In this document: piece after piece, positions 4,131 to 14,453 of the stretch
How the letters are laid out: the number at the start of each line of letters is the position of its first letter
Position numbering within the stretch: position 1 is the stretch's first letter
From: Joostella atrarenae
Lineage (GTDB): Bacteria > Bacteroidota > Bacteroidia > Flavobacteriales > Flavobacteriaceae
Assembly (NCBI RefSeq): GCF_021764745.1
Contig: NZ_JAETXX010000004.1
Location: 186,001 to 250,000, forward strand
DNA: 64,000 nt
Direction of reading: 5' to 3'
Notes under the pieces: generated by a model
What the model saw: the letters and a program-made list of their open reading frames with translations, nothing else
Database searches by the model: none
Told to the model about the DNA's origin: nothing
Translations under genes and position numbers: made by a program

Positions 4131-4672
4131 AGTCGTGCATTTTTTAACTCTGGTAATTCCATATCCTTAGGTGATAATAATAATTCTTCTTTATCTAAAC
4201 CCCAATCAATATTAATTCTAGGGTCATTATAAATTATACCTCCCTCAGATTCTTTAGCATAATAATTATCACATTTATAGAAAAACTCTGACGTTTGACT
4301 AAGCGTAATAAAACCATGGGCAAATCCTCTTGGAATAAATAATTGTTTCTTATTTTCTGCAGAAAGTTCCATTGCAATATGTTGCCCAAATGTTTTAGAG
4401 TCTTTTCTTAAATCTACAGCTACATCCAATACTTTTCCTTGTAAAACTCTTACCAATTTCGCCTGCGCATGTTCTCCTACCTGATAATGCAATGCTCTTA
4501 CCACTCCTTTTTTAGAAAAAGATTGGTTATCCTGTACAAAATTAACCTTTTGTCCTATCGCTTTATTAAATTGATCTTTATTAAAACTTTCAAAGAAATA
4601 ACCTCTTTCATCATTAAAGACCTTAGGCTCTATTATAAAACAACCTTTTAGTTTTGTTTCTGTAATCTTCAT
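4127..4672 (-). CDS. rmlC: dTDP-4-dehydrorhamnose 3,5-epimerase
   Basis: A cupin-fold epimerase of 181 residues, normal for the family. The catalytic pair of RmlC is visible as H62 (VVRALHYQ) and Y132 (SEFFYKCDN), at the numbers known for the enterobacterial enzyme. Other signatures are DERGYFFESF and IPRGFAHGF. It makes dTDP-4-dehydro-L-rhamnose, the substrate of the following gene rmlD, with which it is translationally coupled (ATGA). Upstream (higher coordinates) lie more than 2 kb of repeats before rmlA, so it may not share the rmlA transcript efficiently. Confidence 0.95.
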   Translation of the reverse strand: MKITETKLKGCFIIEPKVFNDERGYFFESFNKDQFNKAIGQKVNFVQDNQSFSKKGVVRALHYQVGEHAQAKLVRVLQGKVLDVAVDLRKDSKTFGQHIAMELSAENKKQLFIPRGFAHGFITLSQTSEFFYKCDNYYAKESEGGIIYNDPRINIDWGLDKEELLLSPKDMELPELKNARL

Positions 4673-4730
4673 TTAACACCTTAACGTTTAAAACTTAAAA
4701 ATCCTCCTTTTGCCCTTGCTTTTCGACCAT

Positions 4731-5586
4731 CCCTTCGACCTAGCCTTCGACAGGCTCAGGCTGACACACACATTCGACTGCTTCACTTGGCCTTCGACAA
4801 GCTCAAGATGACAATCTACAATAAAATAAATTTAGAATAAAAGCCTAAACAATGTTATGTTAAACTTTTCGAACCACATTATCTTGCTTACCAACACATC
4901 ATAAACTCAGGGCGATAATCTACAATAAAATAGATACAAAAATAACACTCAATCTATGTCATGCTGAGACTGCCGAAGCATATTCTCTTACTTACCAACA
5001 CTTCATAAACTCAGAGTGACAACTTCTATCAAAATAAATTCAAAAATAATAACTCAATCTATGTCATGCTGAGACTGCCGAAGCATATTCTCTTACTTAC
5101 CAACACTTCATAAACTCAGAGTGACAACTTCCATCAAAATAAATTCAAAAATAATAACTCAATCTATGTCACGCTGAGCCTGTCGAAGCATATTCTCTTG
5201 CTCACCAACACTTCATAAACTCAGGGTGATAATCTACAATAAAATAGATTCAAAAATAACAACTCAATCTATGTCATGCTGAGACTGCCGAAGCACATTC
5301 TCTTACTTACCAACATTTCATAAACCCAGAGCGACAACCTACATCAAAATAGATTCAAAAACAACAACTCAATCTATGTCATGCTGAGCTTGTCGAAGCA
5401 TATTCTCTTACTTACCAACATTTCATAAACCCAGAGTGACAACTTCCATCAAAATAAATTCAAAAATAATAACTCAATCTATGTCATGCTAAACCTGCCG
5501 AAACATATTCTCTTACTTACCAACCATTCATAAACTCAGAGTGACAACTTACATCAAAATAGATTCAAAAATAACAACTCAATCTA
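4731..5586. repeat. Tandem array 1, 105-bp units with leader
   Basis: A leader (4731-4850) holds three copies of a TTCGAC core, including CCTTCGACAGGCTCAGGCTGAC. Then units recur: the word AATCTATGTC (or a variant) starts at 4951, 5056, 5161, 5266, 5371, 5476 and 5581, an exact 105-bp period, with a degenerate unit from 4851. Each unit contains an imperfect dyad, GTCATGCTGAG about 40 bases before CTCAGAGTGAC (9 of 11 pairs), so each can fold as a hairpin. No protein is encoded. The sequence fills the gap between rmlC and the first GIY-YIG gene. Confidence 0.93.
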
Positions 5587-5975
5587 TGTCATGCTGAGCT
5601 TGTCGAAGCACCATCTTTACCATATTCTGTATAGTTTTTAGAGAACTTCACTAAATTATCCCAATTTTCTTCTATTAAAGCTTTCTTTTTTCTTCTACTC
5701 CAACCCTTAAGCTGTTTTTCTTTTTCAATTGCTATATTAACATTTGTAAATTCAGCAAACCATTTGATCTCTAAAGGTCTTCGATTGTATGTATAAGCAG
5801 AAGGATATATTCCTACATTATGCTCATATAATCTTTTATTGAGATTGGAGGTCATACCAATATAATATGAATCATCTGAGCATTCCAAAATATATACATA
5901 ATAGATTTTCATATTTTTAATATTTAGATGTATTAATAGTCCTTCGACCTGGCCTTCGACAAGCTCAGGCTGACA
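5587..5975. mobile_element. GIY-YIG cassette 1 bounded by inverted repeats
   Basis: A 389-bp unit. The left end reads TGTCATGCTGAGCTTGTCGA (from 5587) and the right end is its inverted partner CTTCGACAAGCTCAGGCTGA (ending near 5975); 19 of 21 core positions pair. The only gene inside is a small GIY-YIG endonuclease on the minus strand. A nearly identical 395-bp unit is at 6476-6870. The ends are the same word that builds the surrounding arrays. Mobility is inferred from duplication and structure; I see no target-site duplication. Confidence 0.6.
5589..5912 (-). CDS. GIY-YIG single-domain endonuclease, copy 1
   Basis: A 107-residue protein of the YhbQ/UPF0213-like GIY-YIG group. The first half of the motif is YYVYILEC (4-10, VYI in place of GIY), then YYIG (16-19), the catalytic Arg in NLNKRLYEHN (R27), and the metal-binding Glu in AIEKEKQLKGW (E63 or E65). 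The C-terminal ASTSSA and the TGA stop are encoded by the flanking repeat. The family cuts DNA by a single-domain GIY-YIG fold; here it may act on the repeats themselves, which is inference. It differs from copy 2 by one residue near the N-terminus (I8 versus L8) and by a 2-residue tail difference. Confidence 0.88.
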   Translation of the reverse strand: MKIYYVYILECSDDSYYIGMTSNLNKRLYEHNVGIYPSAYTYNRRPLEIKWFAEFTNVNIAIEKEKQLKGWSRRKKKALIEENWDNLVKFSKNYTEYGKDGASTSSA

Positions 5976-6475
5976 TACACATTCGACTGCTTTAATTGGC
6001 CTTCGACAAGCTCAAGATGACAATCTACAATAAAATAAATTTAGAATAAAGCCTAATCATTGTCATGCTAAACCTGCCGAAGCACATTCTCTTGCTTACC
6101 AACCATTCATAAACTCAGTATGACAATCTACAATAAGATAGATTTAGAATAAAAGCCTAATCATTATCATGCTAAACCTATCGAAGCACATTCTCTTGCT
6201 TACCAACATTTCATAAACTTAGGGTGATAATTTACAATAAAATAAATTTAGAATAAAAGCTTAATCATTGTCATACTGAACCTGTCGAAGCACATTGTCT
6301 TACTTACCAACATTTCATAAACTCAGGATGACAATCTAGAATAAAGTAGATTTAGAATAAAGCCTAATCATTGTCATACTGAACCTGTCGAACCACCTTA
6401 CCTTGCTTGCCAACATTTCATAAACTAGGGTGATAATCTACAGTAAAATAGATTCAAAAATAACAACTCAATCTA
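5941..6475. repeat. Tandem array 2, 103-104-bp units with leader
   Basis: The leader at 5941-6054 is clearly homologous to that at 4731-4850 (same order of three TTCGAC cores and the word TACACATTCGACTG). Units follow with AATCATTGTC or AATCATTATC at 6055, 6159, 6263 and 6366, and AATCTATGTC at 6470, a period of 103-104 bp. The units are more diverged from each other than in array 1. The array runs into the second GIY-YIG cassette, just as array 1 runs into the first. Confidence 0.9.
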
Positions 6476-6870
6476 TGTCATGCTGAGCTTGTCGAAGCAC
6501 CATCTCCATCTTTACCATATTCTGTATAGTTTTTAGAGAACTTCACTAAATTATCCCAATTTTCTTCTATTAAAGCTTTCTTTTTTCTTCTACTCCAACC
6601 CTTAAGTTGTTTTTCTTTTTCAATTGCTATATTAACATTTGTAAATTCAGCAAACCATTTGATCTCTAAGGGTCTTCGATTGTATGTATAAGCAGAAGGA
6701 TATATTCCTACATTATGCTCGTATAGTCTTTTATTGAGATTGGAGGTCATACCAATATAATATGAATCATCTGAGCATTCCAAAAGATATACATAATAGA
6801 TTTTCATATTTTTAATATTTAGATGTATTAATAGTCCTTCGACCTGGCCTTCGACAAGCTCAGGATGACA
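6476..6870. mobile_element. GIY-YIG cassette 2 bounded by inverted repeats
   Basis: A 395-bp near-copy of the unit at 5587-5975. The ends pair at 20 of 21 core positions (left TGTCATGCTGAGCTTGTCGA, right TTCGACAAGCTCAGGATGAC). It is 6 bp longer because CATCTC is duplicated next to the left end. A handful of scattered substitutions separate the two copies, so the duplication is recent but not brand new. Confidence 0.6.
6478..6807 (-). CDS. GIY-YIG single-domain endonuclease, copy 2
   Basis: A 109-residue twin of the protein at 5589-5912, with the same YVYLLEC, YYIG, R27 and EKEKQLKGW motif residues, so it should be catalytically competent. It carries L8 instead of I8. The tail reads GKDGDGASTSSA because a CATCTC duplication adds Asp-Gly. 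As in copy 1, the final codons and stop come from the inverted repeat. Only silent changes accompany most DNA differences, which hints that the protein is under selection. Confidence 0.88.
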   Translation of the reverse strand: MKIYYVYLLECSDDSYYIGMTSNLNKRLYEHNVGIYPSAYTYNRRPLEIKWFAEFTNVNIAIEKEKQLKGWSRRKKKALIEENWDNLVKFSKNYTEYGKDGDGASTSSA

Positions 6871-7046
6871 ATATACAATAAGATAGATTTAGAATAAAGC
6901 CTAATCATTGTCATGCTAAACCTGTCGAAGCACATTTTCTTGCTTGCCAACGTTTCATAAATTCAGAGTAACAACTTACATCAAAATAGATTCAAAAATA
7001 ACAACTCAATCAATGTCATGCTGAGCTTATCGAAGCACATTCTCCA
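6840..7046. repeat. Repeat array 3, partial
   Basis: This starts with the right end of cassette 2 and continues with one full 105-bp unit (AATCATTG at 6903 to AATCAATG at 7008). It ends in TGTCATGCTGAGCTTATCGA directly before the rmlA stop codon at 7050. Same family as arrays 1 and 2. Confidence 0.85.
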
Positions 7047-7049
7047 TTA

Positions 7050-8019: not shown

Positions 8020-8625
8020 TTCGACCTTACCTTCGACAGGCTCAGGTTGACTAATGTAACTAACTCTCTTCTAGTAACCCCAGAAAACACCCTCAATCAT
8101 TATCATGTTATGCTTACTAAATCACGAATCCCTTCTTTACCATCCCTTTGAGCTTACCTTCGACAAGCTCAGGTTGACAAACCCTAACTAACTCTCTTCG
8201 AGTAACCCCAGAATAAGGCCCTTAATCATTGTCATATTGTGCTTACTGAAGCGCGAATCCCTTCTTTACCATACCTTTGACAGGCTCAGGTTGACAAACT
8301 CTAACTGACTCTCTTCTAGTAAACCCAGAATAACACCTCAATCATTGTCATGTTGTGCTTACTGAAGCACTAATCCCTTCTTTACCATACCTTTGAAAGG
8401 CTCAGGTTGACAAACTCTAACTGACTCTCTTCAAGTAAACCCAGAATAACACCTCAATCATTGTCATGTTGTGCTTACTGAAGCACTAATCCCTTCTTTA
8501 CCATACCTTCTAGCTTACCTTCGACAAGCTCAGGTTGACAAACTCTAACTAACTCTCTTCGAGCAACTCCAGAATAAGCCCCTCAATCATTGTCATGCTG
8601 AGCTTGTCGAAGCACACTCACCTAT
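8020..8625. repeat. Tandem array 4, alternating 129/116-bp units
   Basis: The word AATCATT(G/A)TCAT starts at 8095, 8224, 8340, 8456 and 8585, giving spacings of 129, 116, 116 and 129 bp. Units share CAGGTTGACAAACTCTAACT and CCCTTCTTTACCATACC. The array begins with CCTTCGACAGGCTCAGGTTG (about 8030) and ends with TGTCATGCTGAGCTTGTCGA (from 8591), inverted relative to each other. It carries the same core word as arrays 1-3 but a different unit body. No gene is seen between rmlA and rmlB. Confidence 0.9.
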
Positions 8626-8667: not shown

Positions 8668-9714
8668 TTAATAATATCTCTGATATTCTCCAGAAGTAAC
8701 ATTTCTAAGCCATTCTTTATTATCTAAATACCAATCGATCGTTTTTACCAACCCTTCTTCAAAAGTAACTGATGGCTCCCAACCTAACTGCTTATTTATC
8801 TTGCTAGCATCGATAGCATAGCGTAAATCATGACCTGGGCGATCTTTTACATATGTTATCAATGCTTCAGACTCCCCTTTCACCCTTCCTAATTTCTCAT
8901 CCATCAATTTACAGAGGATTTTCACTAAGTCTATATTTTTCCACTCATTGAAACCGCCTATATTATATGTTTCGTGATTTTTACCTTTATGAAACACTAA
9001 ATCAATAGCAATTGCATGGTCTAAAACATACAACCAGTCGCGTGTGTAATTTCCATCACCATATACTGGCAATGCTTGTTTCTGAATGATATTATTTATA
9101 AAAAGTGGAATTAACTTCTCAGGAAAATGATTTGGTCCATAATTATTTGAGCAGTTACTAATAACATATGGTAATCCATAAGTTTCTCCATAAGCTCTAA
9201 CAAAATGGTCTGAACTTGCTTTAGATGCAGAGTAAGGTGAATTTGGATCGTAGGATGTTTCTTCTGTAAACAAACCTGTTTCCCCTAAAGATCCATATAC
9301 TTCATCAGTACTAACATGATAAAAACGCTTTCCATCATAGTCTTCTCTCCATAAATCTTTTGCTGCATTTAAAAGATTCATTGTCCCAATAACATTTGTT
9401 TTAACAAAGGCTAAGGGATCTGTAATCGATCTATCCACATGGCTTTCTGCTGCTAAATGGATAACTCCATCAAACTTATATTGCTGAAATAAATCGTTAA
9501 TAAAATTAGCTTCAGTAATATCTCCTTTTACAAAAGTATAATTAGAAGCACCTTCCAAATCTTTTAGATTCTCCAAATTCCCAGCATAGGTTAACGCATC
9601 AAGATTTACAATTTGTGTGTTGGGGTATTTATTTACAAACAAGCGCACTACATGAGAACCGATAAATCCAGCACCTCCTGTTATTAAAATTGTATTACCA
9701 CTTTTCCCTATCAT
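8668..9714 (-). CDS. rmlB: dTDP-glucose 4,6-dehydratase
   Basis: An extended SDR enzyme converting dTDP-glucose to dTDP-4-keto-6-deoxyglucose. The NAD loop GGAGFIG is at residues 13-19, the catalytic T-D-E triad at 136-138 (VSTDEVYG) and YxxxK at Y161/K165 (SPYSASKASSDHF). HLAAESHVDRS and NNYGPNHFPEKLIP are family signatures. At 348 residues it is complete. It starts 12 bases after the second UDP-sugar dehydrogenase gene, so the two are co-transcribed. Confidence 0.97.
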   Translation of the reverse strand: MIGKSGNTILITGGAGFIGSHVVRLFVNKYPNTQIVNLDALTYAGNLENLKDLEGASNYTFVKGDITEANFINDLFQQYKFDGVIHLAAESHVDRSITDPLAFVKTNVIGTMNLLNAAKDLWREDYDGKRFYHVSTDEVYGSLGETGLFTEETSYDPNSPYSASKASSDHFVRAYGETYGLPYVISNCSNNYGPNHFPEKLIPLFINNIIQKQALPVYGDGNYTRDWLYVLDHAIAIDLVFHKGKNHETYNIGGFNEWKNIDLVKILCKLMDEKLGRVKGESEALITYVKDRPGHDLRYAIDASKINKQLGWEPSVTFEEGLVKTIDWYLDNKEWLRNVTSGEYQRYY

Positions 9715-11251: not shown

Positions 11252-12508
11252 CTATACAATCATTCCTGCAGCTACCGTTTGATTGGTTGCTGGATCTATT
11301 AAAATTAAGCTTCCTGTCATTCTATTCTCACGGTAAGAATCGTACATTAAAGGTTTTGTAGTTCTTATTTTTACTTTGCTAATATCATTCATATGAAGCT
11401 CCTTATCATCATTTTTTCTAGCTAACGTATTGATGTCAATTTTATAAATCACCTCTTTGATCATTGCCATCTGCTCATTCGATGTGTGACGAACTACATA
11501 TTTTGTTCTCGGTTTTGCCGATTCATTATTCAACCAACATAACATCACCTCTAAATCTTGAGAAGACTCTGGTTTGTTTTTGGTGCGAACAATCATATCC
11601 CCTCTGCTGATATCAATATCATCTTCTAAAGTAATAGAAACCGACATTGGTGCATATGCTTCGTTTAATTCTTTTTCAAAGGTATCTATAGATTTAATTT
11701 TAGATGTAAATCCTGAAGGCATTACCGTAACCTCATCTCCTTTTCTAAAGATTCCGCTAGAAATTCTCCCTGCATAACCTCTATAATCACGATGTTCCTC
11801 ACTCTGTGGTCTCAATACCGTTTGCACAGGAAAACGCCCATCCACCTTATTAATATCACTACTAATATGCATTGTTTCTAATGTATCTAGTAAAGGAGAT
11901 CCTTGATACCAGTCCATGTTTTTAGAACGATTAACAACATTATCGCCCAACAAAGCACTGATAGGAATAAAGCGTACGTCTTTCACTAGTAATTTAGATG
12001 AAAATTCTTCAAACTGAGCAATAATATCATTATAAACATCTTCTTTAAAATCTACCAAATCCATCTTATTGATACAAACTATAAGATGTGGAATTTGTAG
12101 TAATGACGCAATAAATGCATGACGTTTAGTTTGCTCAATAACTCCATGACGCGCATCTACCAGTATTATTGCTGCATTTGCTGTAGACGCTCCCGTAATC
12201 ATATTTCGTGTGTACTGAATATGCCCAGGTGTATCTGCAATAATAAACTTACGCTTTGGAGTGGTAAAGTATCTGTATGCCACATCGATGGTAATTCCTT
12301 GCTCTCTTTCATCGCGAAGGCCATCCGTAAACAAAGCTAAATCTACCCCTGCATGTCCTTTTTTCTTACTAGTGGTTTCTATAGCCTCCAACTGATCTTC
12401 GAATATAGATTTTGAATCGAATAATAATCTTCCGATCAAAGTACTCTTTCCATCATCTACACTCCCAGCAGTTGTAAATCTTAATAATTGATTGTTATCT
12501 ATTTGCAT
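11252..12508 (-). CDS. cysN: Sulfate adenylyltransferase subunit 1 (GTPase)
   Basis: This is the regulatory GTPase of heterodimeric ATP sulfurylase; it couples GTP hydrolysis to APS formation by CysD. The P-loop is GSVDDGKS (15-22), DTPGH is at 93-97 and NKMD at 148-151. The EF-Tu-like beta-barrel domains fill the C-terminal half. At 418 residues it is the stand-alone CysN form with no fused CysC kinase, matching a separate cysC upstream. It is separated from cysD by an inserted four-helix-bundle gene. Confidence 0.96.
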   Translation of the reverse strand: MQIDNNQLLRFTTAGSVDDGKSTLIGRLLFDSKSIFEDQLEAIETTSKKKGHAGVDLALFTDGLRDEREQGITIDVAYRYFTTPKRKFIIADTPGHIQYTRNMITGASTANAAIILVDARHGVIEQTKRHAFIASLLQIPHLIVCINKMDLVDFKEDVYNDIIAQFEEFSSKLLVKDVRFIPISALLGDNVVNRSKNMDWYQGSPLLDTLETMHISSDINKVDGRFPVQTVLRPQSEEHRDYRGYAGRISSGIFRKGDEVTVMPSGFTSKIKSIDTFEKELNEAYAPMSVSITLEDDIDISRGDMIVRTKNKPESSQDLEVMLCWLNNESAKPRTKYVVRHTSNEQMAMIKEVIYKIDINTLARKNDDKELHMNDISKVKIRTTKPLMYDSYRENRMTGSLILIDPATNQTVAAGMIV

Positions 12509-12540
12509 TATTTCAGGCTTTAGGCAATAAGCTCTAGGTG

Positions 12541-12894
12541 TTAAGCTATTAGCTTCTTGCTTAAATTATATAATTTACTTTTTATTTCATTAATTTTTAA
12601 AGTCAGCATATCAAAAATATCTTTAGAAATATACTTTAAATCCTTAGAAAGGAGAATAAAATACTCCAACTCATGCGCTGACCCTAAACAGATTTGAATA
12701 AATCTATTAAAATCTTTATCAGATCCTCGACCACAACCCTCACTAAAGTTTGATGGTATCGAATAAGCTGCTCGTTGCATTTGAGATATCAATTGAAATC
12801 TTTCCTCCGTTGGAAACCCTTTAGTCACCTTATATATTTCTAAGGTAAATTCATGACTAACATTCCAAACATTATACTTTTTAAAATCTCTCAT
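12541..12894 (-). CDS. Four-helix-bundle protein (23S rRNA IVP / S23 family)
   Basis: A 117-residue protein of the four-helix-bundle family first described from 23S rRNA intervening sequences. Signatures are FPTEERFQLISQMQRAAYSIPSNFSEGCGR and ELEYFILLSKDL. The function is unknown. It lies between cysD and cysN, a pair that is normally contiguous, and is flanked by a 9-bp inverted repeat (TAAGCTCTA at 12528-12536, TAGAGCTTA at 12932-12940). These facts suggest it arrived as an insertion. It keeps the operon orientation and so probably does not block cysN transcription. Confidence 0.87.
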   Translation of the reverse strand: MRDFKKYNVWNVSHEFTLEIYKVTKGFPTEERFQLISQMQRAAYSIPSNFSEGCGRGSDKDFNRFIQICLGSAHELEYFILLSKDLKYISKDIFDMLTLKINEIKSKLYNLSKKLIA

Positions 12895-12948
12895 ACATAA
12901 TTACAAGCCTAATGCAAATTAGCATATTGCATAGAGCTTAAGACCCAA

Positions 12949-13854
12949 CTAAAAATACCCTTGTCGCTTTCTGTCTTCCATGGCGGATTCTGAACGCTTA
13001 TCATCAGAGCGATTTCCTCTTTCTGTTTGTCGCATTGCAGAAACTTCTTGCGCTACTTTCTCTACTGTATCAGCATCGCTTTCTATTCCTCCAGTAATGG
13101 TAATATCTCCTAATGTTCTAAAGCGGATTTTCTTAGTCACCACTTCTTCATTATCATCTAATTGCAAGAATTCAGAATGTGGAATCCATGAATTACTTCG
13201 CCAAACTACTTTTCTTTCGTGAGCAAAATAAAGAGAAGGAATTTCTATATTCTCTCTGCTGATATAATTCCAAATATCCATTTCCGTCCAGTTACTTATT
13301 GGAAAGGCACGAAAATGCTCTCCTTCAAATTGCTTCCCATTAAAGAGATTCCACAATTCTGGTCGCTGATTTTTAGGATCCCATTGCCCAAAATCGTCTC
13401 TATGTGAAAAGAAACGTTCTTTAGCTCTCGCTTTTTCCTCATCTCTACGTCCACCACCAATGGCACAATCCACTTTATTCGCTTCTATAGCATCCAATAA
13501 TGTGGTAATCTGCAATGCATTTCTAGTTGCACTTTTTCCTTTCTCCTCAGCAACACGCCCTTCATCGATAGATTCTTGAACCGAACCTACAATTAATTGC
13601 ACACCAAGACTCGCTATCAAATCATCACGAAACTTAATCGTTTCAGGAAAATTATGCCCCGTATCTACATGCATCAATGCAAATGGAATCTTTGCTGGGT
13701 AAAATGCTTTTTTTGCTAAATGGGTTACCACTATAGAATCTTTTCCCCCTGAAAATAATATTACAGGGTTTTCAAACTGTGCCCAAACTTCACGCATTAC
13801 GTAAATGGCTTCCGATTCTAACTCGTCTAAATAATTTAAATAATACTTACTCAT
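12949..13854 (-). CDS. cysD: Sulfate adenylyltransferase subunit 2
   Basis: The catalytic subunit of ATP sulfurylase, a PP-loop adenylyltransferase that makes APS from ATP and sulfate. The PP-loop is SGGKDS (35-40), and ALMHVDTGHNFPET, GGGRRDEEKARAKER and FRTLGDITITG are CysD signatures. It is 301 residues and complete. It starts 2 bases after the cysC stop, indicating tight coupling, and pairs functionally with CysN downstream. Confidence 0.97.
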   Translation of the reverse strand: MSKYYLNYLDELESEAIYVMREVWAQFENPVILFSGGKDSIVVTHLAKKAFYPAKIPFALMHVDTGHNFPETIKFRDDLIASLGVQLIVGSVQESIDEGRVAEEKGKSATRNALQITTLLDAIEANKVDCAIGGGRRDEEKARAKERFFSHRDDFGQWDPKNQRPELWNLFNGKQFEGEHFRAFPISNWTEMDIWNYISRENIEIPSLYFAHERKVVWRSNSWIPHSEFLQLDDNEEVVTKKIRFRTLGDITITGGIESDADTVEKVAQEVSAMRQTERGNRSDDKRSESAMEDRKRQGYF

Positions 13855-13856
13855 TC

Positions 13857-14450
13857 TTATTTGAGTTCTAACTGATCCTTAATTTCTAAATATATCTTTG
13901 CAACAGCTTCTTCTGCGCTGTCGTTTTCTGTAATTTCAATATCGGCATTTTCTGGAGCTTCATAAGGAGCATTTACCCCTGTAAGATTTTTTATCTCTCC
14001 CTTTTCTGCCATTTTATACAATCCCTTTTGGTCTCTTTTTTTACAAATTTCAAGACTGGTATTCATATAAACTTCGACAAATATATTAGGTTTTATTGTC
14101 TTTTCTACATATTCTCTATCTTTTTTGTAGGGTGATACAAAGCTTGCTAAAACTACAACCCCAGATTGGAGTAATAAATTAGCTGTTTCTGCAACTCTAC
14201 GCACATTTTCAGAGCGCGCTTCTGCACTAAAGTCCAACCCTTTACAAAGTCTACCTCTAATATTATCTCCATCTAAAATAATAGTTCTAATTTTTTCAGA
14301 ATTTAATTTTTGTTCAAGCGCATCTGCCACCGTAGACTTTCCAGAACCCGATAATCCTGTAAACCAAATAAGCAAAGAGCGATGTCCATTTAATAAATTT
14401 CTATCCTCTTGAGTTATCTTAAAGTTATATGGAAAAATATGTTGCTCCAT
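13857..14450 (-). CDS. cysC: Adenylylsulfate kinase
   Basis: APS kinase phosphorylates APS to PAPS. The P-loop is GLSGSGKST (about 32-40), followed by ILDGDNIRGRLCKGLDFS, which binds APS, and the lid region FVSPYKKDREYVE. About 197 residues from the ATG at 14450; an in-frame TTG directly upstream is an unlikely start. The gene lies 3 bases after the DUF2061 stop. Making PAPS in an operon without a visible PAPS reductase points to either sulfation or a reductase encoded elsewhere. Confidence 0.96.
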   Translation of the reverse strand: MEQHIFPYNFKITQEDRNLLNGHRSLLIWFTGLSGSGKSTVADALEQKLNSEKIRTIILDGDNIRGRLCKGLDFSAEARSENVRRVAETANLLLQSGVVVLASFVSPYKKDREYVEKTIKPNIFVEVYMNTSLEICKKRDQKGLYKMAEKGEIKNLTGVNAPYEAPENADIEITENDSAEEAVAKIYLEIKDQLELK

Positions 14451-14453
14451 CAA

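Follow-up and report, generated by a model that had tools for sequence, protein, structure and literature searches.

Why should small nuclease genes lie between inverted copies of a word that also builds the tandem arrays around them? This question is raised by a locus of Joostella atrarenae (Flavobacteriaceae; contig NZ_JAETXX010000004.1). In the 64,000-nucleotide stretch analysed here (positions 186,001 to 250,000 of the contig, hereafter the window), two short cassettes between rfbC and rfbA each carry a gene for a GIY-YIG nuclease. A sequence-only reading had proposed that the repeats form a family served by its own nuclease, a counterpart of repetitive extragenic palindromes (REPs) and their RAYT transposases. 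The framing of the genes, the inward orientation of the repeats, the co-divergence of enzyme and repeat and the existence of filled and empty sites led us to the same view: with a probability of about 0.72, the cassette is a REPtron-like unit whose GIY-YIG enzyme is chemically unrelated to RAYT. The cassettes are made up of the following features:

5587..5975, no strand: cassette 1 (389 bp), a tagged repeat, a GIY-YIG gene and an inverted tagged repeat
6476..6870, no strand: cassette 2 (395 bp), a tagged repeat, a GIY-YIG gene and an inverted tagged repeat
5589..5912, minus strand: GIY-YIG nuclease gene 1 (107 amino acids, PF01541)
6478..6807, minus strand: GIY-YIG nuclease gene 2 (109 amino acids, PF01541)
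5587..5610, plus strand: type A repeat TGTCA-TG-CTGAGCTTGTCGAAG-CA, which codes for the C-terminal ASTSSA and the stop of gene 1
5952..5975, minus strand: type A repeat in inverted orientation, upstream of gene 1, with its core at 5954-5968 and its tag TGACA at 5971-5975
6476..6499, plus strand: type A repeat at the 3' terminus of gene 2, with its core at 6483-6497
6847..6870, minus strand: type A repeat in inverted orientation, upstream of gene 2, with its core at 6849-6863

The repeat, designated type A, has the general form TGTCA-nn-CTGAGCTTGTCGAAG-nn, and inverted copies close both cassettes: the low end of each is TGTCATGCTGAGCTTGTCGAAGCA, and the high end is its inverted partner with TGACA as the last letters. 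In inverted register, the ends matched at 20 and 21 of the first 22 positions, whereas no inverted 22-mer exceeded 16/22 in 216 control spans taken from position 9000 of the window onward; the near-perfect pairing proposed earlier (19 and 20 of 21 positions) was thus confirmed. Over 389 aligned columns, the two cassettes differed by 6 mismatches and one 6-bp gap. The only open reading frames of at least 60 amino acids within them were the two GIY-YIG genes, both on the minus strand, in agreement with the earlier description of two units holding a single gene each between inverted ends. The stop codons of both genes lie inside the repeat, and the last residues (ASTSSA) are therefore encoded by it.

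Both proteins matched PF01541 (E 3.8e-16 and 8.9e-16; 59.6 and 58.4 bits relative to a curated cut-off of 22.6), and the closest solved structure to the gene 1 protein by sequence was 1zg2, a UPF0213 protein. NCBIfam assigned no family to the three GIY-YIG proteins tried. Residues Y7, Y17, G19, R27, H31 and E65 were among those invariant in an alignment of 39 relatives. These residues, among them the conserved Tyr, YIG, Arg and Glu positions (Y7, Y17, G19, R27 and E65), have catalytic roles in GIY-YIG enzymes, in line with the earlier claim that the catalytic residues are kept.

A 14-base type A word occurred in 17 copies in the window at up to 2 mismatches, against 0.30 expected. As the sequence-only reading had stated, the word at the cassette ends also builds arrays around the two units:

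4870..5610, no strand: array of about seven units of 105 bp, each with one repeat and, beyond a short spacer, a worn inverted one (e.g. CACTTCATAAACTCAGAGTGACA)
6011..6454, no strand: array of about four units of 104 bp, between the cassettes
8155..8605, no strand: third array, with a 116-bp period, between rfbA and rfbB
7021..7035, plus strand: type A core adjoining the rfbA stop codon, at the edge of the filled rfbC-rfbA gap
4745..4806, minus strand: two inverted type A cores (4745 and 4792) where the region borders on rfbC

Type A cores around the third array start at 8031, 8158, 8275, 8391, 8519 and 8598. With its repeat, short spacer and worn inverted repeat, the array unit resembles a cassette minus the gene. 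It is rather probable that the twin cassettes arose only by tandem duplication, through unequal crossing-over between array units and with no action of the nuclease: they share one orientation and lie within arrays, 889 bp from each other and separated by array DNA. Such crossing-over accounts for the local doubling but not for the association of gene and repeat elsewhere; two cassettes lying side by side in another genome (G302, L198) are allowed by either explanation.

The sequence-only reading had pointed to the genomes of Bacteroidota as the place to look for further GIY-YIG genes flanked by the inverted repeat, and they were found there. The locus counts that follow rest on the best 80 of 243 relatives of the window protein. 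The window's own word (up to 2 mismatches) formed an inward inverted pair within 500 bp of the gene in 39/80 relatives. Employing a word-free search for inverted 20-mers with at least 16 matches, we found such pairs around the gene at 60/79 loci relative to 9/298 shifted windows; L076 was left out of this count because its contig starts at the gene and offers no upstream DNA. The search also delivered further repeat words, namely type B (CTGAGCGnAGTCGAAG) and the C/D type (TGTCAnTTCGAGTGA with TTGTATCGAGAA). At least one of the four repeat types was present within 250 bp at 78/80 loci, about 50-fold over background, and none was found within that distance of L036 or L090. At distances of up to 250 bp from the gene the four types had a density of 10.6-10.9 per kb, which fell to 0.14-0.22 per kb beyond 1 kb, and the matched GIY-YIG domains contained no internal copy of them. 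Orientation was counted for types A and B and not for C/D: the nearest repeat within 150 bp pointed inward in 33/40 loci upstream and 43/47 downstream for type A, and in 8/8 and 8/10 for type B.

Chance was rejected as the source of the word and of the framing by the word excess, the shifted windows and the inverted-end controls. Relatives of the protein were also present in 20 phage records, each with less than 60% identity. Types C and D were mostly paired 25-45 bp apart in a composite unit, often in gene-flanking arrays (L042, L046, L052, L064 and others); at L073, an exception among these loci, type C stood mostly alone. At L066, L078 and L092 the GIY-YIG frame continues via repeat-encoded stretches (e.g. 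SLRQAQTD) into a FabZ-type dehydratase, possibly a fusion made by the repeat; the FabZ match of L092, the sole one checked, was below the curated cut-off.

Relatives of the protein were found in 26 records of a plasmid collection, of which 18 loci were opened, one per record, the other 8 being from genera already covered. Loci were called from lists of inverted repeats and from the flanks by eye, with shifted controls for part of them (best control 14-17/18, framed loci 16-18). Inverted tagged palindromes surrounded the gene at 11/18 loci. A curiosity confined to Bacteroidota was thereby rejected, as these framed loci belong to other phyla. No such palindromes were found at the remaining seven, which were those of Bacillus subtilis (yazA), Radiobacillus, Listeria, Legionella lytica, Sphingomonas paeninsulae, Subdoligranulum and Cupriavidus. 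Homologues standing apart from the repeat, which had been named as evidence contrary to the proposal, therefore do exist. B. subtilis and Radiobacillus have a common neighbourhood (yabA / tRNA methyltransferase / GIY-YIG / rsmI), and their GIY-YIG genes look like settled genes. On a plasmid of Planktothrix agardhii (L176), the GIY-YIG gene was located among TGTCATTCTGAGTGAAACGAAGAATCTCT repeats, between an MmeI-type restriction gene and the DISARM gene drmA.

Eleven of the 18 loci were Alphaproteobacterial: six had CGTC-tagged repeats, three CCTC-tagged repeats, one type B repeats and one none. The CGTC-tagged repeats were CGTCATCCTCGGGCTTGACCCGAGGATCCA or close variants in Sinorhizobium meliloti, Rhizobium and two Shinella, CGTCATCCCCGCGAAGGCGGGGATCCA in Azospirillum and CGTCACCCCGGGCTTGACCCGGGG in Sphingobium; the CCTC-tagged ones framed the gene in two Methylobacterium and in Sinorhizobium C101. 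In Sphingomonas parapaucimobilis, the type B repeat has a GTTCA foot, and at L171 the gene runs at its end into the downstream type B repeat.

To what structure do these repeats correspond? The covariation set comprised 217 distinct type A copies from 48 sources, with the core held at no more than 1 mismatch by the search. The tag was unconstrained by the search yet nearly fixed (T 81%, G 95%, T 97%, C 93%). The two positions that flank the core to its left and right were variable, yet 96% and 87% formed Watson-Crick pairs, compared to 25% and 33% after shuffling; at the inner of these positions all four pair types were present, and pairing ended at the tag. The corresponding values for type B (37 copies) were 86% and 84%, compared to 36% and 34%. 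At the A/T position that starts the type A stem, 51% were paired, compared to 50% after shuffling. Because the flanking bases vary but stay complementary, the repeat is predicted to act as a hairpin with a free TGTC tag, and the covariation argues that type A is selected in this form. The inner stem contains G-A and A-G steps; sheared G-A pairs are a known form of pairing, and we read these steps in type A as paired. G-T cells at the two covarying positions were 16/434, too few to separate an RNA from a DNA hairpin.

These features recall a class of repeats already in print. REPs are common in bacteria, and CGTC REPs are one of two super-families described in 2013, in the main text of that report without an enzyme (PMC3733652). 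There they are characterized by a tag of CGTC, TGTC or CCTC, a stem of 8-9 bp opening with A-T pairs, a loop of 4-5 bases and, in most members, a CCA tail, and Azospirillum lipoferum and S. meliloti, in both of which we found the framed gene, are listed among the species that carry them. According to Di Nocera 2013, no transposase was found beside CGTC REPs and the matter of a dedicated enzyme was left open; the term 'GIY' is absent from its main text. Among the literature matches listed, no title or abstract start tied GIY-YIG to REPs, which is not proof of absence; three papers that contain a 12-base part of the word appear from their titles to be unrelated. The CGTC-tagged repeats of the six Alphaproteobacterial loci fit this published description. 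In our loci, a stem opening with complementary A and T was seen by eye at L175, L188, L190, L193 and L196, and a CCA tail at the loci of Azospirillum, S. meliloti, Rhizobium and Shinella.

The repeats found here share with the CGTC super-family the TGTC/CGTC/CCTC tag, unpaired at one end, the short-loop hairpin and the occurrence in Bacteroidetes and Alphaproteobacteria. Head-to-head dimers were seen as inverted doublets around genes and in G223, where the two type A doublets opened (L203, L204) are CGTC-tagged and inverted at about 60 bp. Unlike CGTC REPs, type A repeats have inner G-A steps and show no CCA after the stem. We did not file type A as a strict member because the CCA tail is missing and the first A-T pair is not kept, and we think that it is, judged by these motifs, a Bacteroidota relative of the class. 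On balance we favour GIY-YIG proteins of the UPF0213 kind as the missing dedicated enzymes of the CGTC super-family and its Bacteroidota relatives.

The same structure suits another role. Conceivably, though we consider it the lesser prospect, the nuclease gates incoming or exposed single-stranded DNA in natural transformation or replication, as is reported for the Ssn nuclease of Neisseria, and the repeats are marks spread by ordinary recombination, with mobility a side effect. A hairpin with a free tag suits a single-stranded substrate, and the CGTC-1 repeats include the dRS3 repeats of Neisseria (PMC3733652). Gating by itself, however, gives no account of a gene placed between inward repeats or of the filled and empty sites described below.

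Enzyme and repeat were also matched to each other. A tree was built from 79 domains, with L032 and L079 excluded and two rows unlabelled; on it the repeat label required 7 changes compared to a shuffled mean of 27.5, and 0/200 shuffles were as low. The C/D label occupied one side of one branch (22 rows, support 94). Within a single genus, Tamlana has type A (L018, L019) and C/D (L042), and Aquimarina has type A (L023, L026) and type B (L076, L094). In genome G153 (L167), two matched pairs lie 1.2 kb apart: a GIY-YIG gene at 4309-4596 is framed by a fifth word, type E (TGTCATGCTGAACTCGTTTCAGCA; matches at 4223, 4275 and 4711), a second at 5816-6154 by type A (5747, 5821, 6178 and 6237), and neither word adjoins the other gene. 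Scored with alignment A1, the two proteins gave 69.4 bits (L138) and 155.1 bits (L128), respectively, and the former showed 48% identity to a GIY-YIG protein of S. meliloti; they are of different branches. The repeat type largely follows the protein clade.

Additional GIY-YIG genes were noticed. Further genes of the genus (L141, L153, L156) are flanked by GGCTTCTCGyAAGAGA palindromes. The genome of the window has three more small GIY-YIG genes, on G000:C3 (L010, L013) and G000:C67 (L012), whose neighbours, by eye, are tRNA-like genes or partial tRNA copies and CCTGCCTGCCGGCAGGCAGG-like palindromes. Perhaps they are another enzyme-repeat pair, inserting at tRNA genes.

Repeat and gene were also associated across whole genomes, in a family sample of 149 and a phylum sample of 158, some genomes being common to both. 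The exact type A core was present in 51/149 family genomes, and a reversed control word in 2. A close GIY-YIG gene (best E up to 1e-24 with alignment A1) was found in 35/51 family genomes with the repeat and 19/98 without it (Fisher p 7.6e-9); at 1e-30 the numbers were 30/51 and 16/98 (p 2.1e-7). In the phylum sample they were 19/40 and 13/118 (p 3.5e-6), and for any GIY-YIG match 33/40 and 68/118 (p 0.004). A repeat just as frequent in genomes without the gene, which the sequence-only reading had named as contrary to it, was thus not what we found.

It had also suggested a count of filled and empty sites, and both forms were found in the genus of the window, in Azospirillum and in Sphingobium. 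The rfbC-rfbA gap of the window is filled (2,377 bp, 4673-7049; gene names of the window copies were confirmed with NCBIfam). The genome has a second rfb cluster directly before the window (L164, G000:C34:181909-185766), and there the gap measures 0 bp; among congeners it measures 2 bp at L165, 173 bp at L162 and, according to the start codon chosen, 25 bp or slightly more at L161. None of the four repeat types was detected within 1.5 kb at eight rfbA loci (L158-L165). Clearly, the empty form is present at L164, L165, L161 and L162, and the other four loci are uninformative. The rfbB protein of L164 showed 96.5% identity to that of the window over 340 residues.

At the cysC-cysD-cysN cluster (window 11252-14453; L166, L167), the cysC-cysD gap is 2 bp in the genome of the window, 0 bp in G152 and 667 bp in G153, where it holds the repeat-framed GIY-YIG; in G152 a cassette of its own lies between cysD and cysN instead. 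Three species have different insertions in this cluster, which looks like an insertion hot spot in the genus; at 12541-12894, the window has an open reading frame for a four-helix-bundle protein (TIGR02436) where G152 and G153 have GIY-YIG.

In Azospirillum lipoferum 4B, a framed GIY-YIG gene occupies the sufB-sufC gap (617 bp). The gap is 87 bp in A. oryzae, 91 bp in A. ramasamyi and 129 bp in strain B510, all without such repeats, and the matched pieces are 93.6-94.6% identical. Alignment of six Sphingobium plasmid loci revealed three with the framed gene, two with a single near-symmetric repeat in the same place and one with neither. The single repeat may be a pre-insertion target or a post-deletion scar; a deletion could leave it, since the two end repeats have outer arms in direct orientation to each other.

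These sites bear on a further explanation, that a free-standing GIY-YIG gene is a homing-type parasite inserting into pre-existing repeats of other origin as a safe harbour. The two Sphingobium strains with a single repeat where three others hold the cassette agree with this, but that repeat could equally well be a deletion scar. The empty Azospirillum site and the cysC-cysD gaps of 0-2 bp have no repeat to be entered, and the repeat type changes with the protein clade. We regard homing as unlikely. Far less likely still is a role of the repeats as transcript hairpins (terminators or stabilisers), with a small gene between them by chance: RNA would also produce hairpin covariation, and is still compatible with it although G-T cells are few, but the inverted placement on both sides, the gene-less arrays and the repeat type following the clade are not explained. 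That a RAYT or other HUH transposase moves the repeats while the GIY-YIG gene hitch-hikes is very improbable and is not supported for this genome, unless the enzyme was lost recently: RAYT are thought to move GTAG-tagged REPs (PMC3733652, PMC8266576) but the tag here is TGTC or CGTC, and the window genome yielded 0 PF01797 (Y1 transposase) matches at E up to 0.001 whereas 5/14 control genomes were positive.

For the REPtron-like unit, we infer that the enzyme cuts the repeat on a single-stranded substrate and that the cut drives copying. A UPF0213-type nuclease would recognise its own tagged repeat, a hairpin of about 19 nucleotides preceded by an unpaired TGTC or CGTC tag, when this is single-stranded or extruded, and would cut at the folded repeat. 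Repair or recombination would then copy the repeat-bounded DNA, multiplying gene-bearing units (repeat-gene-repeat) together with gene-less doublets and arrays. GIY-YIG enzymes hydrolyse DNA without a covalent link to it, and copying would therefore depend on repair or recombination between repeats, which fits local tandem growth, worn doublets and slow movement. By analogy, recognition and cutting of the folded repeat would most likely resemble the action of TnpAREP, an enzyme whose substrates are its cognate REPs in single-stranded form and which has evolved together with these REPs (PMC8266576).

A number of observations weigh against this reading. No cleavage or movement was observed. Conservation of the type A core is no evidence because the core was fixed by the search, and support for the hairpin consists of two covarying pairs together with the inner G-A/A-G steps taken as pairs. 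Nearest-neighbour DNA folding did not predict the type A/B hairpins (z -0.27, 0.90 and 0.66), and did predict the CGTC repeats of Sinorhizobium (z -4.7) and Azospirillum (z -3.3). Types A and B are less well separated than C/D and intermingle in part of the tree. In the comparison of genomes, which are not independent, the cut-off of 1e-24 was picked after the table had been viewed. The repeat was present with no GIY-YIG match in 3/51 family genomes (G015, with 8 copies, G041 and G121) and in 7/40 of the phylum sample (G155, G162, G184, G196, G252, G255 and G277), G277 being the largest exception with 25 copies; the repeat-rich G114, G200, G223 and G231 have distant GIY-YIG genes only. Among the rfb loci, congener G030 (L163) has an rfbC-rfbA gap of 955 bp with none of the four repeat types, and no rfbC was found near rfbA at L158, L159 and L160; a wide gap alone is therefore not diagnostic. 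Seven Chryseobacterium copies share one common location, so that movement is slow there. No target-site duplication was evident by eye in alignments A2 and A3 (Azospirillum and Sphingobium), whose flanks have diverged too far for a firm call.

How does the cassette compare with known systems? It has inverted ends, as insertion sequences do. Free-standing GIY-YIG homing endonucleases likewise have a small gene at an intergenic site that is present or absent between relatives; unlike them, the genes here are framed by repeats that also occur as gene-less doublets and arrays. A further comparison is with Ssn of Neisseria, reportedly a small GIY-YIG single-strand nuclease with a target repeated in the genome and many homologues with matching sequences; it is said to have appeared in Nature Communications around 2025 and is taken here as a lead. 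Set against Ssn as so described, the differences are the framed unit that duplicates and inserts, the repeat types of Bacteroidota and the covariation. If the description is right, cutting is known for a cousin, and what is new is the framed mobile unit, the matching of enzyme and repeat in Bacteroidota, the covarying hairpin and the connection with CGTC REPs.

Since the candidate target flanks the nuclease gene on either side, the question of the enzyme is directly testable. Specificity could be compared across the natural pairs (types A, B, CD and E and several Alphaproteobacterial ones), and the positions that covary allow break-and-restore experiments. The closest parallel is with REPs or REPINs and RAYT (TnpAREP), which, as described in PMC8266576, PMC3116915 and PMC3733652, also combine short tagged imperfect palindromes, inverted doublets, an enzyme gene near or framed by the repeats and co-evolution of the two. 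The enzyme here is of the GIY-YIG and not the HUH/Y1 type, and the tag is TGTC or CGTC and not GTAG. If our reading is true, there are two chemically unrelated types of enzyme, each with a REP system of its own making that consists of tagged hairpins, doublets and framed genes, and many enzyme-repeat pairs diverge together.

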